DNA from: a virus
DNA length: 52,162 nucleotides
IMG/VR virus record: IMGVR_UViG_3300043449_000682
Span: 1 to 52,162 of that record
Strand: one strand, 5' to 3'
This document shows positions 2,801-43,906 of the stretch, in pieces. The stretch's first letter is position 1. Each line of letters begins with the position of its first letter. Below the pieces are notes generated by a model that was not told the DNA's origin, searched no databases, and was given only the letters and a program-made list of their open reading frames with translations. The position numbers were made by a program, and so were the translations under genes.

Positions 2801-3352
2801 TTAATTAAACCTTATTGCTTTTGACAATAGTTTATTATAATAAAAGTAGCATAGGTCCATATTAAAATTGTCCAAATTTATTTTATTGTATCCTGGGATA
2901 ATTTTACTTGATCCTTTTGCCAATCCCCTAGCGTCGTAGTCTGTGTCATCAGGAAATTGTAGATATGATTTCTGGTCTATTTGAAGCAGTTCTAGTGCTT
3001 TCTCTATTACAGCATCTGGAATTGAAACTAAGTCTTTAAAGTCTATAACGTAGTCTGCCTCCTGAAACAAAAAATTATAAAACATGATATAGTTAGTTAT
3101 TATTTCATTTATCTTTGAGTCTGGAGTATCGAATCCTTGAATTCTTTGCAGGGCTATCAAAGAAGTTATTGTGTCTTTTGGATCTCTTGCTATGGTTATA
3201 ATTTTTCTTATTTTTTTATTGTCTTTATCAAATGAAATATTTATGCTATGAGATCTTTGAATGTTAAACATTGTTTTTTCATTTACAAGTTTAGCGAAGT
3301 AGTGAGAACCACTTCTAGGAAATGTTACTAAGTGAGGCAGCAGTGTATCCAT
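2801..3352 (-). CDS. Sulfotransferase-like protein (copy 1)
   Basis: 183 aa. HLVTFPRSGSHYF at residues 7-19 matches the 5'-phosphosulfate loop of PAPS-dependent sulfotransferases, and IARDPKDTITS (Arg56, Ser64) matches the 3'-phosphate binding motif. It is short for the family (usually 250-300 aa), so the acceptor-binding part is reduced. The start ATG overlaps the stop of its paralogue (TAATG), and the two end in similar NFNMDLCYFYYNKLL tails, so this is a tandem duplication. It would move sulfate from PAPS to a hydroxyl or amine; the acceptor (glycan, lipid or metabolite) is unknown. Confidence 0.75.
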   Translation of the reverse strand: MDTLLPHLVTFPRSGSHYFAKLVNEKTMFNIQRSHSINISFDKDNKKIRKIITIARDPKDTITSLIALQRIQGFDTPDSKINEIITNYIMFYNFLFQEADYVIDFKDLVSIPDAVIEKALELLQIDQKSYLQFPDDTDYDARGLAKGSSKIIPGYNKINLDNFNMDLCYFYYNKLLSKAIRFN

Positions 3353-4031: not shown

Positions 4032-5459
4032 TTACACAAAGTCAAACCATAGTGGCATGATGTATCTTGAACCATTTGCTGATCCTACATGATACCAATA
4101 GTGAGCATTTCCAGGGAAGATAACCAAATCGCCAGCCTTTGGCTTAAACGATAAACTTTGATTAATAAAAGACAGTTCTCCACCATCATAATCATCATTT
4201 AGATATACCCATCCAGCCAAATGGTTTGAATCTTTACGACCCATATCATCTATTGCTACTGGGGCACTGTTCTTGTGCACCCACTGAGCGAATCTAGAAT
4301 TCCTTGGCTTGAGGTTTACACTAAACTCTTTTTCTAAAATAGATTTGATATCAGGTATATATTTTTCTGAATATGTAAGTGAGTCATAATATAGCAAAGA
4401 TAGAGCAGGCCACCCAGCATCATCGTTCTGAAGACGACGGTTATTGCTTGTCTCTGTACTATTAATCAACTCTATAATTTTTGTGCATTCATCTTTACTA
4501 AGGTAATCTCTGTATACCTTTACATTATCAGGATTACTTCCGATATTATTAAAGTTTTTTACTGTTAGGTCAGAGTATCCTATCACATTTCCTTCAGGAA
4601 TTACGATATCATTAAAGTTTTTTACCATATCCAACAACTTGCTGATGTCTTCTTGATCGGTATGAATCATAAAATCATAAACACCAAATTTTTCAGACAG
4701 GTTTCTTATTTGTGCAACAACATCTACCAATTTCCCTTTTATTAAATGATTTTGCTGTCTCACTGGGGCATTCTTATCATACTTAACATACTTTTCATCG
4801 TCTGGATGAGTAGTAATAAGTGGATCAATAATAACTATTGGCTTTACCTTATCTAGATCAATCTTATTAAACTGATCTCTAAACAAGAGGTTATCATCTA
4901 CATATATATACTCACAATGCTTATTTGCTATTTCAATTGTTGTGTCTGAAGACCCAACTACTGCCATATGCGTCTTATATTGATGCTTTTTCATCAAAGC
5001 CATGACCTTATCCATCCAGACTGCTGATACTGCAACCCTCTTTTCAAGAGTATCAATCAAAGATGAGTCATGCATGTAATGGTCTAATACTAGTTTTTCT
5101 GAAGGACCATTGCCTTCATCTCCCCATCTTCCAGCAACCATGTTTACTCCGATTCTTCCAGGAGCAAAACGATTTAATGTTTCACAAATTTTAGCAGCAT
5201 AGTCAGGGCTTACCCCATATGCTGGCAAAGCAATTGTCATAACTAACTGGTCTGTTTTTTGTAATGCTTCTTGGATAACCAAAGAAAAATCAATTCCACC
5301 TGGACCATATGGAAGCAAAACAGACTTTACGTTAGCACCATCTAATTCTTTTGCCATGCCAAGAATTCCATTAAGGTCTAGGTTCTCAATACTGTCATTG
5401 ATCTGCCAGTGCCTTCTCCACATCCAGTGAAATGTTATAGGCTTTTTTGTATTATCCAT
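4032..5459 (-). CDS. Luciferase-like monooxygenase fused to a 2OG-Fe(II) oxygenase fold
   Basis: 475 aa, two domains. Residues 1 to about 300 resemble flavin-dependent luciferase-like monooxygenases of the alkanesulfonate (SsuD) type: SVLLPYGPGGIDFSL, ALPAYGVSPDYAA and RFAPGRIGVNMVAGR. Residues about 315-475 are a prolyl-4-hydroxylase-like double-stranded beta helix with LNDDYDGGELSF, GDLVIFPGNAHYWYH and a late Arg465. Aligned with the neighbouring oxygenase (HVDD), the iron-binding His of HxD is Ala402 (AIDD), while Asp404 and a distal His remain. The C-terminal domain may therefore be inactive or bind metal differently. The ATG overlaps the upstream gene by 8 bp. A role in sulfur or peptide oxidation is inference. 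Confidence 0.72.
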   Translation of the reverse strand: MDNTKKPITFHWMWRRHWQINDSIENLDLNGILGMAKELDGANVKSVLLPYGPGGIDFSLVIQEALQKTDQLVMTIALPAYGVSPDYAAKICETLNRFAPGRIGVNMVAGRWGDEGNGPSEKLVLDHYMHDSSLIDTLEKRVAVSAVWMDKVMALMKKHQYKTHMAVVGSSDTTIEIANKHCEYIYVDDNLLFRDQFNKIDLDKVKPIVIIDPLITTHPDDEKYVKYDKNAPVRQQNHLIKGKLVDVVAQIRNLSEKFGVYDFMIHTDQEDISKLLDMVKNFNDIVIPEGNVIGYSDLTVKNFNNIGSNPDNVKVYRDYLSKDECTKIIELINSTETSNNRRLQNDDAGWPALSLLYYDSLTYSEKYIPDIKSILEKEFSVNLKPRNSRFAQWVHKNSAPVAIDDMGRKDSNHLAGWVYLNDDYDGGELSFINQSLSFKPKAGDLVIFPGNAHYWYHVGSANGSRYIMPLWFDFV

Positions 5460-5703
5460 TTTTTGCTACTCTTCCTTTTGTCTTAAACCAAGAACCTATC
5501 TTGGATTGTGCTACTTTACTTCTAAGAAGTTCACCAAAAGTATCGTGGGATATTTCTGAGCCAAGGTACTCTTGACCAGTTTCAAGGTCAATAAGTTTCC
5601 ATTTCCCTGGTGCTCTTGTGTGTAATATTAAGTCTATGGGGTAGTCGTAGTCATTTACTTCAGAACCATCCAAAAGCGTTCTCTTTTTAATATTATCTGT
5701 CAT
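5452..5703 (-). CDS. Hypothetical protein
   Basis: 83 aa, soluble, with a beta-rich middle (KWKLIDLETGQEYLGS) and a basic C-terminal tail (KIGSWFKTKGRVAKNG). It lies between two oxygenase genes and overlaps the downstream fusion gene by 8 bp, so the three are one operon. I do not recognise the family; co-transcription suggests an accessory role to the oxygenases. Confidence 0.65.
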   Translation of the reverse strand: MTDNIKKRTLLDGSEVNDYDYPIDLILHTRAPGKWKLIDLETGQEYLGSEISHDTFGELLRSKVAQSKIGSWFKTKGRVAKNG

Positions 5704-5704
5704 C

Positions 5705-6319
5705 TTAAACTATCGTAAACCAAATCGGTAGTGTATATCTGATTCCAGACAAAACTTCTTTAACTTCGTGCGGGTAGTGTAAATTGCCTGGGAATACAAC
5801 GAAGTCTCCAATATTAGGTTTAATAGAGACGCCGTGTAGTTCAAAACTAATCTCGCCACCTTCGTAGTCATTATTTAAATAAATCAGTACTGGTAAATGA
5901 TTATCTGTGACATATCCGAGATCATCAACATGTAGTTTTAGGTATGTTCCTTCTGTCCATTTAACAACGCTTAGGTGAGGCTCTTTTGCTCTAATTCTTT
6001 CTTTTTCAATACCATAAGATGTTGCTATCTGCTCTCTGCATCTTTCTATTATGTTGTTGATATCTTCTACACCGTTGTACTGGTGCATGTATGTTAAAGC
6101 ATTTCCATCGTGATCTTTTTGAGATACAAAACTAATTGAAGTCCTATTGTCTATATCTTTCATTAAATAGTCAATTTCTTCTTTTGTTAAGAAGTTAGGA
6201 ATGAGTTTAATATTTTCAGCAGAATTCCCGACTCTATGGAAAAATTCCATATACGATTCGTTTCTCGCTATGCTTGGTGGATCATTTCCAACTGGGATTC
6301 CGTTAACTATATAAGCCAT
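5705..6319 (-). CDS. 2OG-Fe(II) oxygenase (prolyl-4-hydroxylase-like)
   Basis: 204 aa from ATG 6319. The iron triad is complete: His130 and Asp132 in KLHVDDLG and His184 in HYPHEVKEV, with Arg194 (SGIRYTLPIW) to bind 2-oxoglutarate; NNDYEGGEISF is typical of P4H-like folds. These enzymes hydroxylate peptides or small molecules. An upstream in-frame GTG exists at 6334, but it lies in the TATAAT box that ends 6 nt before ATG 6319, so the leaderless ATG is preferred. First gene of a leftward operon, divergent from the GIY-YIG-like gene. Confidence 0.85.
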   Translation of the reverse strand: MAYIVNGIPVGNDPPSIARNESYMEFFHRVGNSAENIKLIPNFLTKEEIDYLMKDIDNRTSISFVSQKDHDGNALTYMHQYNGVEDINNIIERCREQIATSYGIEKERIRAKEPHLSVVKWTEGTYLKLHVDDLGYVTDNHLPVLIYLNNDYEGGEISFELHGVSIKPNIGDFVVFPGNLHYPHEVKEVLSGIRYTLPIWFTIV

Positions 6320-6325
6320 ATAACC

Positions 6326-6357
6326 ATTATACACTATGAGTAGATATGAAGTATAAT
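6326..6357. promoter_or_regulatory. Divergent pair of leaderless promoters
   Basis: A minus-strand TATAAT (6326-6331) lies 6 nt before ATG 6319 and a plus-strand TATAAT (6352-6357) lies 6 nt before ATG 6364. The two start codons are only about 45 bp apart, so polymerase binding to one should hinder the other. Confidence 0.65.
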
Positions 6358-13499: not shown

Positions 13500-13512
13500 A
13501 TTTATTTACTTG

Positions 13513-13586
13513 CGATCCGTACGGGACTTGAACCCGTGACCTCTACCGTGACAGGGTAGCGAACTAACCAACTATTCTAACGGACC
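13513..13586 (-). tRNA. tRNA-Asp (GTC)
   Basis: A 74-nt minus-strand cloverleaf. Acceptor GGTCCGT pairs with ACGGATC, stem CTACC/GGTAG closes loop CTGTCAC (anticodon GTC), and the T arm is CGGGTTCAAGTCCCG. It lies alone, far from the other tRNAs, downstream of the DUF932 gene and before a terminator. Confidence 0.95.
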
Positions 13587-26284: not shown

Positions 26285-27109
26285 ATGGCACGGTTTACTA
26301 CAGCAGGTGGAGAAGGATCTGGAGCACCAGGACCACAAGGTCCACAGGGTATTCAAGGTGAACCTGGAGAAACTCCAAACCTTTCATCATATGCAGGAGA
26401 TATTCTTCCATCATTAGATAACACATATGTTTTGGGTAATTCAGATAATAGATGGAAGTCTATATCTATTGGTGAAGGAACTATTTATATTACTGACGCT
26501 ACCCTTGGAACAGAGGTCGGTCTTACTATTGACAACGGTATATTTTTTATTGACGGTATTGCACAAGCACAGTTGACAGATCTTTCTGTTACCAATTTAA
26601 CTTTTGCAGATAACAGTGTGCAGACAACTGCTTATACAGGTGCTGCTGGAGTAAGCGGTAATGGAGAGGTCACAAGATGGTCTCCAAACTTTAGAGCAAC
26701 TGGTTTAACATTTACTGGAACAGGTGCTACATACCCAACATATAATTCACACTATGTTAAGAATGGTCGCTCTGTTACTTTTTTTATTGAGATTGATATG
26801 ACTACCGTTACAAATTTCGGTACTGGACAATACATTGCAGAACTTCCATTTATGCCATTGACAGGAACAATGAATCATTTTCAAGCATGGTCACTAGTTG
26901 ATCCAGCAGTAAATCCAGATATTTCAGGACATGTGGTTTTGCAAGCAGATCATTTAGCAAATACTAAAGATCTTGATTTGCATTACTTAAAGCAAGCAGG
27001 TGGTGCAAACTCTCCACTAATGGAGGCCCTATTTAAGCAGGGTACGCCAGCAACTTTAACCACATCAAGCAAGATTTATATTAATGGTACATATATAACT
27101 GCTGAATAA
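26285..27109 (+). CDS. Collagen-like tail-fibre protein
   Basis: 274 aa. Residues 8-28 are Gly-X-Y triplets (GAPGPQGPQGIQGEPG), then beta repeats (YVLGNSDNRWKSISIGEG) typical of trimeric fibres, and a C-terminal receptor-like domain. Collagen segments trimerise fibres. Co-transcribed with the small upstream gene. Confidence 0.75.
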   Translation: MARFTTAGGEGSGAPGPQGPQGIQGEPGETPNLSSYAGDILPSLDNTYVLGNSDNRWKSISIGEGTIYITDATLGTEVGLTIDNGIFFIDGIAQAQLTDLSVTNLTFADNSVQTTAYTGAAGVSGNGEVTRWSPNFRATGLTFTGTGATYPTYNSHYVKNGRSVTFFIEIDMTTVTNFGTGQYIAELPFMPLTGTMNHFQAWSLVDPAVNPDISGHVVLQADHLANTKDLDLHYLKQAGGANSPLMEALFKQGTPATLTTSSKIYINGTYITAE

Positions 27110-27129: not shown

Positions 27130-27861
27130 ATGGCTGTTTCTAAATCAATGGATTTCCCAGGTGCAAAAAAATCTTCTTATGCTGCACAAGTAGAGCAAAG
27201 TCAATCAACGGGTCTGCCAGATAACACTTTGTCCTTTCTTCCTGTGCCAGGACCAGTAGGACCACAAGGACCATCAGGTAGAGACGGCAAGGATGGCAAG
27301 GAAGGTCCAGAGGGGCCAGAAGGAAAGCCAGGTACAAGAGGTGCCCAAGGACCAGCAGGTAAAGATGGAGCAAGTTCTTTATCATCTTCAGGACAGCAGG
27401 CAGGCTGGGCTTCTTATATAAATGCTTTTGATAAGCAAATAAAACTTGGCATATCTCAAGGAGATGATGGTTGGGTTACTCTTCTTCTAGACACAAAAGA
27501 CAAGTTCCAAAATGAGACATATCTTCCTAAAGGTTGTACTAGTCTTTGGAATAGCCATCAAAGAGCCCTAAACTTTCACGGTATAAAAGAAGGATCTCAG
27601 ATCTTTGTAACATACAACTTTGAACTAACAACCTATACTCCAAACACAGAGGTTTGGCTAAGGACATACTTTACAAAGAAAAATCAGGAATTTGTTCAAT
27701 TTGTTGGTTCTTTAAAGTATCAGAATGTCTACAATTTGTCAGTTACACAGAACATATTTATTGAAGACAGGGATATGTGGGCAAGTGGGGCAGTCCCACA
27801 AATTAGAACAGATTTTGATGCATCTGTAATTCTCAATTCTGTCTATGTCAGCGTGGTATAA
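27130..27861 (+). CDS. Collagen-like tail-fibre protein
   Basis: 243 aa. Gly-X-Y repeats at residues 40-78 (GRDGKDGKEGPEGPEGKPG), then a beta C-terminal domain with a SLWNSHQRALNFHGIKEG segment. Likely trimeric adhesin. The last codons GTG GTA TAA overlap the -10 box of the next gene. Confidence 0.75.
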   Translation: MAVSKSMDFPGAKKSSYAAQVEQSQSTGLPDNTLSFLPVPGPVGPQGPSGRDGKDGKEGPEGPEGKPGTRGAQGPAGKDGASSLSSSGQQAGWASYINAFDKQIKLGISQGDDGWVTLLLDTKDKFQNETYLPKGCTSLWNSHQRALNFHGIKEGSQIFVTYNFELTTYTPNTEVWLRTYFTKKNQEFVQFVGSLKYQNVYNLSVTQNIFIEDRDMWASGAVPQIRTDFDASVILNSVYVSVV

Positions 27862-31334: not shown

Positions 31335-31574
31335 GTGTCAGAAAACCTGAGTGCTTGGGAAAAGTATAAGCAAAATCTTGGAGATACTAGACCATGGGAT
31401 TTAGTAAACCCAAAATCACAAAAAGTAGATTCAGAGCATGCTGAGGAAAGATATCAAATATGTCTGTCTTGCCCAGAATTAATAAATTTAACAAAGCAAT
31501 GCAAAAAGTGTGGATGTTTTATGTTTGCAAAAACTAAACTAGAATTGGCAACATGCCCGTTAGGAAAATGGTAA
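31335..31574 (+). CDS. Zinc-ribbon protein
   Basis: 79 aa, GTG start. RYQICLSCPELINLTKQCKK then CGCFMFAKTKLELATCPLGKW: four Cys pairs in the order of small zinc-ribbon proteins (DUF6171-like) often found beside 2OG oxygenases in large phages. Its TAA overlaps the next ATG. Role unknown. Confidence 0.68.
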   Translation: MSENLSAWEKYKQNLGDTRPWDLVNPKSQKVDSEHAEERYQICLSCPELINLTKQCKKCGCFMFAKTKLELATCPLGKW

Positions 31575-32170
31575 TGAATAGAAAAGAATTAGCGCCAGGT
31601 ATATTTGTTTATTCTGATGTTATTAAAAACTTTAGTACCTTTTGTGCTGATATCGAAGAGGGTATGGTTAGTGCACGTATGGAGTGGTCTCCATCTTCAA
31701 TTAAAAGTGGTGAGACAGTAAAAATAGATACGGACTACAGAGACACAATGGCTATAACTGTGCCATATAACGAAAATATTATTGAGAATTATTCAAATCT
31801 TGCTGAGGCATTTTACTTAAGTTTGTCAAACATTTTTCTTTCAGCCTTTTTGCCAGCAGAGTTTGACTATAAATCAGAGCATAATTTGGAAACAACCTGG
31901 CATGACGGCTATAGTATTTTAAAGTATGGGAAGGGTCAGAAGTTTACAAACCATGTTGACGATCACAAAGACTACCACCGAAGAATGTCCTTGGTATATT
32001 ATATAAACGATGACTATACTGGTGGAGAAATACGTTTTCCAAGGTTTGGAATAACCTACAAGCCAAAGGCAAATGAACTACTCATATTTCCATCAACATA
32101 TGTTTACAATCACTCAGTACTTCCAGTTACAGAAGGAATTCGATATGCTGTAGTTAGTTGGTTAAGATGA
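31574..32170 (+). CDS. 2OG-Fe(II) oxygenase
   Basis: 198 aa from ATG 31574 (TAATG overlap). Complete metal site: His127 and Asp129 in NHVDDHKD, distal His180, Arg190 (EGIRYAVVSW); NDDYTGGEIRF is the P4H-like signature. It would hydroxylate a peptide or small substrate with 2-oxoglutarate and O2. Its stop overlaps the next ATG, so it is translated with the cupin gene. Confidence 0.85.
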   Translation: MNRKELAPGIFVYSDVIKNFSTFCADIEEGMVSARMEWSPSSIKSGETVKIDTDYRDTMAITVPYNENIIENYSNLAEAFYLSLSNIFLSAFLPAEFDYKSEHNLETTWHDGYSILKYGKGQKFTNHVDDHKDYHRRMSLVYYINDDYTGGEIRFPRFGITYKPKANELLIFPSTYVYNHSVLPVTEGIRYAVVSWLR

Positions 32171-41872: not shown

Positions 41873-43906
41873 ATGTCAGATTTTTTTAGTTTTAGACTTC
41901 CAGAAGATTTTGTAGAAAAGTACAAAAATACAGAAAGTCCATTTGGGTTTAAGGACGCAGCAGAAAACTCACTTGGAGAAATTACTTTTATTCGTACTTA
42001 TTCTCGCATGAAGGAGGATGGAACTAAGGAGCGCTGGCATGAAGTATGTCGTCGTGTAATCGAGGGGATGTACTCGGTACAGAAAAACCATGCCAAGGAA
42101 AATCGTCTACCATGGAATGACTATAAGGCTCAGAAATCAGCACAGGAGGCATTCCAGAGAATGTTTGAGTTGAAGTGGACACCACCAGGACGAGGCATGT
42201 GGGCATTTGGAACTCCTATGACTATGGAGAAGAAGAATTCAGCAGCACTACAAAACTGTGCAATGGTATCTACTAAGGACCTTGATAAGAATGATCCAGG
42301 AGCCCTATTTGCTTGGGTTATGGATGCGTTGATGCTTGGTATTGGTGTAGGGTTTGATACAGTTGGACAGGATAAGAATTTTGCAATCTACTCCCCAACA
42401 GAACCAGAACAGATCTTTGAAATTCCAGACACTCGTGAGGGCTGGGTAGAGTCGGTACGACTTCTGATTAACTCTTACCTAAGACCAAATCAAAGCATCC
42501 AAAAGTTTAACTATGATTTGATCAGACCTCTTGGAGCGCCTATTAAGGGCTTTGGAGGCGTTGCATCAGGGCCTGCACCTCTTATCAAGTTACATGACCA
42601 GATAGACCGTGTAATCGGCTCCAGAGGCGGAGAAACACTAGACTCTCGTGCTATCGTAGACCTGGTAAACCTAATTGGCACTTGCGTTGTTTCTGGTAAC
42701 GTTCGTCGATCAGCAACCCTTGCTTTGGGTACCGCAGGCGATGAAACATTTATGAACCTAAAGAATTCAGAGATGTTCCCAGAGCGTAACTCTTTTGATC
42801 CAGAAAACCCAGGATGGGCATGGATGTCTAACAATTCTATTTCAGCAGAAGTGGGAACAAAGTACGAAGACTATGTAGATTTAGTTACAGAAAATGGAGA
42901 GCCAGGGTTTATCTGGCTTGATGTTGCTCGTAATTATGGAAGACTGAAGGATGCGCCAGACGGTAAAGATTATCGTGTGATGGGATTTAACCCATGTGCG
43001 GAGCAGCCATTAGAGTCATACGAACTCTGTACGCTTGTAGAAGTGCACTTGAATCGTCATGAATCTAAGGAGGACTTCTTGCGTACCCTGAAGTTTGCAT
43101 ACCTTTACGGAAAGACTGTCACCCTTGTCCCAACACACTGGCCACAAACAAACGGGATCATGCAACGCAACCGTCGTATTGGTACATCACTTACAGGTAT
43201 TGCATCTTTTGCAGATCAAAAGGGATTGCCAGTTGTTCGTGAGTGGATGGATGAAGGATATAACAAGATTCGTCACTATGATCATCAGTATTCAGAATGG
43301 CTCTGTGTTCGTGAATCAATTCGTGTAACAACAGTTAAGCCATCAGGATCAGTTTCAATTCTTTCTGGCGCAACTCCTGGAGTTCACTGGGGACCTGGAG
43401 GAAACTTCTTCCTTCGTGCAGTTAGATTTGGAAACACAGATCCAATGATGCACTTGTTCAAAGCAGCAGGGTACACAATTGAAGATGACGTAGTGTCAGC
43501 AAACACATCAGTAGTTTACTTCCCAATTAAGTCAGGTCATCCAAGATCTGAAAAGGATGTAACATTGTTTGAGAAGATTGCTCTTGCTGCAACCGCTCAG
43601 AAATATTGGTCTGATAATGGTGTTTCTGTAACACTTTCATTTGACAAAGAAACAGAGTCAAAGCATGTCGTTCCAGCGCTCCACATGTACGAAGGACAAC
43701 TGAAGGCAGTCTCATTCCTTCCAATGGGAAATACTGTTTATCCTCAGCAGCCATATACTCAGATTACTGAAGAAGAATATGAGTCTTATATTGGCAAGTT
43801 GAAGCATATTGACTTTGGTGCAATTTATGATGGTGTTGATAATCTTGAGGCTCAGGGTGAAGCATACTGCACAACAGACTACTGTGAAATTAAAATAAAC
43901 AAGTAG
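41873..43906 (+). CDS. nrdJ: Class II ribonucleotide reductase (adenosylcobalamin-dependent)
   Basis: 677 aa, single chain. Active-site residues are present: Cys129 (LQNCAMVS), Cys375 and Glu377 (FNPCAEQP), Cys386 (YELCTLVE; 11 residues after Cys375 as in L. leichmannii RTPR), and the C-terminal reducing pair Cys666/Cys671 (CTTDYC). It reduces ribonucleoside triphosphates to deoxy forms for phage DNA synthesis and needs vitamin B12 coenzyme and thioredoxin. No B subunit is needed. It lies between fibre genes and a giant tail protein, likely expressed with them. Confidence 0.93.
   Translation: MSDFFSFRLPEDFVEKYKNTESPFGFKDAAENSLGEITFIRTYSRMKEDGTKERWHEVCRRVIEGMYSVQKNHAKENRLPWNDYKAQKSAQEAFQRMFELKWTPPGRGMWAFGTPMTMEKKNSAALQNCAMVSTKDLDKNDPGALFAWVMDALMLGIGVGFDTVGQDKNFAIYSPTEPEQIFEIPDTREGWVESVRLLINSYLRPNQSIQKFNYDLIRPLGAPIKGFGGVASGPAPLIKLHDQIDRVIGSRGGETLDSRAIVDLVNLIGTCVVSGNVRRSATLALGTAGDETFMNLKNSEMFPERNSFDPENPGWAWMSNNSISAEVGTKYEDYVDLVTENGEPGFIWLDVARNYGRLKDAPDGKDYRVMGFNPCAEQPLESYELCTLVEVHLNRHESKEDFLRTLKFAYLYGKTVTLVPTHWPQTNGIMQRNRRIGTSLTGIASFADQKGLPVVREWMDEGYNKIRHYDHQYSEWLCVRESIRVTTVKPSGSVSILSGATPGVHWGPGGNFFLRAVRFGNTDPMMHLFKAAGYTIEDDVVSANTSVVYFPIKSGHPRSEKDVTLFEKIALAATAQKYWSDNGVSVTLSFDKETESKHVVPALHMYEGQLKAVSFLPMGNTVYPQQPYTQITEEEYESYIGKLKHIDFGAIYDGVDNLEAQGEAYCTTDYCEIKINK

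Follow-up and report, generated by a model that had tools for sequence, protein, structure and literature searches.

In the window, i.e. the complete 52,162-nt stretch of a virus record that was analysed here, one gene joins an LLM (SsuD-like) domain to a second domain that has the fold of a 2OG oxygenase and its 2OG-anchoring Arg, while its iron triad is gone. Alignments with related genes show that this C-terminal half is, as far as can be read from the protein sequence, a pseudo-oxygenase. We lean towards the view that it acts as a dead partner or scaffold in a hetero-complex with an intact oxygenase and that it tethers the LLM enzyme to the latter. The first-pass annotation of this DNA had already suggested a non-catalytic module serving an active neighbour. 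The family-wide loss of the triad, the intact neighbour, purifying selection and the kinship of both domains agree with this suggestion, the role itself being a predicted one.

The fusion is encoded by a single open frame of 475 aa (4032-5459, minus strand), which was recognized by its ORF, a PF13640 and an NCBIfam match and its relatives on other contigs. Its LLM domain comprises residues 1-289 (4593-5459, minus strand) according to profile and structure matches, and the stand-alone LLM proteins of the split loci (283-295 aa) described below stop at the same place. This half matches NCBIfam TIGR03565 (alkanesulfonate monooxygenase, E=1e-6) and the sequence of MsuD 7jv3 (E=1e-4), and its predicted fold, a TIM barrel of the Bac_luciferase type, matches MsuD/SsuD with a Foldseek E of about 1e-11; the mean pLDDT of the fusion model is 76.7. 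With 27.8 bits versus a cut-off of 518 it remains below the threshold of the SsuD/MsuD family profile, and the sequence match to Bac_luciferase is partial and under the Pfam cut-off. By sequence similarity and predicted fold the N-terminal half is a member of the LLM superfamily with a putative use of FMN or F420. The pseudo-oxygenase (DSBH) domain, residues 297-475 (4035-4571, minus strand), was delimited by PF13640 and alignments and reaches the DSBH profile with 30.3 bits at a cut-off of 27, which is in line with the initial description of an SsuD-like luciferase-type domain joined to a 2OG-Fe(II) oxygenase fold.

When the fused domain is aligned with the upstream oxygenase gene, the place of the first iron-binding His (His135 of the neighbour) is occupied by Ala402, encoded by GCA (4254-4256, minus strand), and AIDD replaces the HxD motif, as had been noticed from the window alone together with the retention of Asp404 (4248-4250, minus strand). 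The accompanying claim that a distal His persists did not hold. The joint alignment matches Val458 to Val191 of the neighbour, which puts His189 opposite Tyr456 (TAT, 4092-4094, minus strand) and Glu190 opposite His457; the true distal position is thus Tyr456, and the window copy retains only one of the three iron ligands, Asp404. The 2OG-anchoring Arg465 (4065-4067, minus strand) is conserved in all 80 complete pseudo-domain copies.

Judged from sequence comparisons, the loss of the iron triad is fixed throughout the fusion family. At position 402, the 81 aligned fusions have Pro (63), Ser (9), Arg (5) or Ala (4) and in no case His, while Asp404 is found in 73 and replaced by Asn in 8. The set of 81 distinct pseudo-domains, which comprises 71 fused ones and 10 encoded by a separate gene after the LLM gene and includes clade B and the split form, contains the first-ligand motifs PxD (46), SxD (11), HxN (7), PxN (6), RxD (5), AxD (4), QxD (1) and LxD (1). 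The distal column holds Tyr in 69 and His in 11 of the 80 complete copies, and in some clade A members, e.g. L044 with its WHDV, the His stands exactly at position 456. The complete HxD...H triad occurs in 0 of these 80 copies, and no fusion possessing it turned up when the 81 distinct copies were searched. The first His is absent from 74 of the 81 domains. The original emphasis on the lost His was too narrow, because at least eight patterns of disruption are seen, some of which lack the Asp (HxN, PxN), and the distal His is lost as well. Likewise, the comparison with Fe/2OG halogenases is of little help, since these enzymes retain both His and lose the Asp alone; the halogenase pattern HxG or HxA with both His was not found in the family, where Asp losses take only the forms HxN and PxN. 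A misassembled or misread base at codon 402, which had been named beforehand as one of two findings that would overturn the reading, has practically no probability left, since Ala or other non-His residues at this position are common to independent contigs carrying the relatives.

The degenerate ligand positions could also mean that the domain is an active enzyme which holds a metal via other residues, for example His395 and Asp404 or, in clade B, His/Asn/His. Indeed, His395 and His413 are invariant in the 81 clade A fusions, and the clade B domains often have both His plus an Asn (HxN...H). However, no ligand set is shared by the family, because clade B has Lys in place of His395 and some copies have none of the three ligands (PxN...Tyr). 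Furthermore, His413 is not a new ligand, since the active partners possess it too (His146). We regard such an alternative metal site as improbable.

The upstream gene (5705-6334, minus strand) encodes a stand-alone P4H/PHD-like 2OG oxygenase whose triad is intact (His135, Asp137, His189, Arg199), as supported by PF13640, alignments and structure matches (model pLDDT 89). The HxD...H...R pattern is intact in 81/81 copies of the first set and in 75/75 complete copies of the wider set, and the difference from the pseudo-domains, none of which kept the triad, argues for a partnership of a dead and an active oxygenase. The same holds for their arrangement, because each of the first 82 fusion loci has the active partner upstream, at a distance of 214-277 nt from the fusion frame. 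Clade B, in which the partner is 0.9-1.9 kb off and not adjacent, keeps it in the neighbourhood, but the larger distance weakens the argument. The first-pass annotation had placed the neighbour 250 bp upstream; the distance of about 245 bp is close to this, yet the gap is not empty and contains a conserved gene for an 83-aa protein (5452-5703, minus strand). The stop of this gene overlaps the start of the LLM gene by 8 nt in the window and by 11 nt in many other copies, i.e. the overlap is conserved. It adjoins the LLM gene in 245 of 246 copies, some of which come from loci overlapping on the same contigs, the remaining copy being situated at a contig end. Over its first ~50 residues the 83-aa protein is similar to the C-terminus of phrog_4098, a large protein of T4-type phages. 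On the other side of the fusion lie a sulfotransferase-like gene recognized by Pfam (PF00685; 3352-3894, minus strand) and a second one below the Pfam cut-off (2801-3352, minus strand). Of 93 distinct loci, 76 contain sulfotransferase-like genes at a distance of up to about 6 kb, and 50 have a GDSL-like gene nearby. The conserved cassette consists of the active oxygenase, the 83-aa protein and the LLM-pseudo-oxygenase, often with sulfotransferases.

Relatives of the fusion are encoded on 129 viral contigs in the first scan and on 132 in each later scan, largely the same contigs, while two scans of genome contigs from bacteria and archaea revealed no relatives. The LLM domain had no match in 50,697 cultured-phage records even at E=1. 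One copy (L097:3366-4741) is disrupted by what looks like a change of frame. A split form exists in 10 distinct loci, where the LLM protein stops at about residue 283 and a gene of its own encodes the oxygenase-like domain; in 9 of the 10 this gene starts just past the LLM stop. The split copies are scattered among fused ones in the tree, which implies that fission or repeated fusion occurred. Since the separate domain is degenerate as well, the loss of the iron site is independent of being fused, and its persistence directly after the LLM gene is consistent with a function as partner. Moreover, six loci of similar phages (L315-L320; e.g. L318:2826-4777) carry a second module, in which an oxygenase gene is immediately followed by a diverged LLM-like gene (about 251 aa) and, where the upstream sequence is present, two adjacent oxygenases with intact triads are found. 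The LLM assignment in this module is based on a weak profile match of 18.4 bits, and this LLM did not match the cultured-phage records either. If the assignment is right, LLM plus two oxygenases is a recurrent arrangement in which one oxygenase was silenced in the main family, and this pairing speaks in favour of the partner role, too.

In the tree, all pseudo-domains form one clade (support 1.0) that adjoins the active partners of clade B (0.925). This placement fits a duplication of a partner-type oxygenase, and the close kinship of dead and active domains is in agreement with their proposed joint action. In pairs with a pseudo-domain dS of 0.3-1.5, the pseudo-domain has a median pairwise dN/dS of 0.16-0.18, compared with 0.17-0.20 in the active partner and 0.09-0.10 in the LLM domain. 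The ligands lost differ from copy to copy, as would be expected for a decaying remnant without function. However, the constraint close to that of the active neighbour, the many invariant residues and the retention of the domain in the 71 fused and 10 split distinct copies make such a remnant very improbable, and neutral decay is ruled out by the dN/dS values. The similar constraint on both oxygenase types points to a preserved role beside the active enzyme. Between clades A and B, LLM and the small protein remained 79% and 73% identical, respectively, whereas the pseudo-domain (36%) and the active partner (39%) diverged together. It appears that both oxygenase types changed in step while the core of LLM and 83-aa protein stayed conserved, which would favour a hetero-complex but is only suggestive, since it represents a single event. 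A partial distance correlation with the partner, calculated for clade A, is not specific for the pseudo-domain (0.25 versus 0.28 for the LLM domain), which also weakens the partner interpretation.

Another explanation is that the pseudo-domain works solely in cis, binding a substrate or sensing a dicarboxylate for the LLM enzyme, and plays no direct part in the action of the upstream oxygenase. This would account for the finding that the domain is fused to or immediately follows the LLM in all copies examined, for the intermixed fused and split forms and for the universal Arg465. However, the pseudo-domain groups with the family of the upstream partner and diverges along with it between the clades, and in the 2OG-oxygenase family binding of 2OG in the absence of a metal is expected to be weak. 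A function restricted to the LLM thus seems unlikely to us, although it has the best prospects among the alternatives.

We prefer the hetero-complex, and its evolution and function may be envisaged as follows. A duplicated prolyl-hydroxylase-type domain lost its iron triad and retained the fold. It would then pair with the intact oxygenase of the same cassette and supply a binding face for a substrate or partner, while the fusion or the adjacent gene would bring the LLM enzyme to the substrate of the active oxygenase. The 83-aa protein is probably a further subunit or adaptor, and the cassette as a whole may oxidatively modify a peptide or protein while the phage infects an actinobacterium. 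A more detailed version, i.e. a phage-made oxidative modification complex in which the dead paralogue builds the substrate site of an active hydroxylase-like enzyme and carries a flavin/F420 enzyme, coupled to the 83-aa protein as adaptor or substrate, is a tentative and rather doubtful proposal.

The hosts are probably actinobacteria, presumably in freshwater, because whiB, which serves as an actinophage marker in freshwater metagenomes (PMC6802176), occurs in 12/12 related longer records. The window, a fragment, does not contain whiB; its capsid protease resembles that of Streptomyces phages. The related longer records have 4-7 PF13640 matches each. Among its tail genes the window harbours a third 2OG oxygenase, whose HVD motif looks intact (31553-32170, plus strand). 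Collagen-like Gly-X-Y stretches (GPQGPQGIQGEPGE) occur in two putative virion proteins (26285-27109 and 27130-27861, plus strand), which are possible prolyl hydroxylase substrates. Further genes include five for tRNAs (Trp, Gly, Ile, Met, Asp; 3-485 and 13512-13586, minus strand) and one for a ribonucleotide reductase (phrog_367; 41873-43906, plus strand) amid structural genes.

Compared with known systems, the kinds of part are familiar and their combination is new. The upstream oxygenase has its nearest solved relatives in B. anthracis P4H, chlorovirus vCPH and PHD2, whose defining triad the fused domain lacks. The LLM half resembles the FMNH2-dependent alkanesulfonate monooxygenases SsuD/MsuD in sequence and predicted fold, but these proteins have 345-404 aa instead of about 285 aa, and the phage domain scores far under the family cut-offs, begins with the invariant HWMWRRHWQ and is fused to a pseudo-oxygenase. 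The nearest viral LLM folds, annotated as 'Luciferase-like domain containing protein' of uncultured Caudovirales phages (BFVD A0A6J7WN64, A0A6J7WQ01), are stand-alone proteins of 249-251 aa, unlike the 475-aa fusion, which has no counterpart among the top 50 BFVD matches; in the literature on phage LLM plus oxygenase we found no description of the cassette. The closest parallel for the dead domain is provided by the tandem DSBH prolyl hydroxylases OGFOD1/Tpa1/Ofd1, which combine an active P4H-type domain with a second DSBH devoid of a metal site; for the C-terminal DSBH of OGFOD1 an origin by duplication, a loss of catalysis and a role in substrate or partner recognition have been proposed (PMC4396695), a precedent that supports the partner role suggested here. 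However, OGFOD1/Tpa1, the clearest-documented non-catalytic 2OG-oxygenase domain that we found, is eukaryotic and carries both domains in one chain, whereas the phage cassette encodes them in separate genes, the dead domain being fused to or located beside the LLM. The conserved phage cassette offers a natural active/dead pair, the dead oxygenase being attached to another kind of redox enzyme and its intact paralogue lying next door, and its fused, split and differently broken versions make this pair directly testable.
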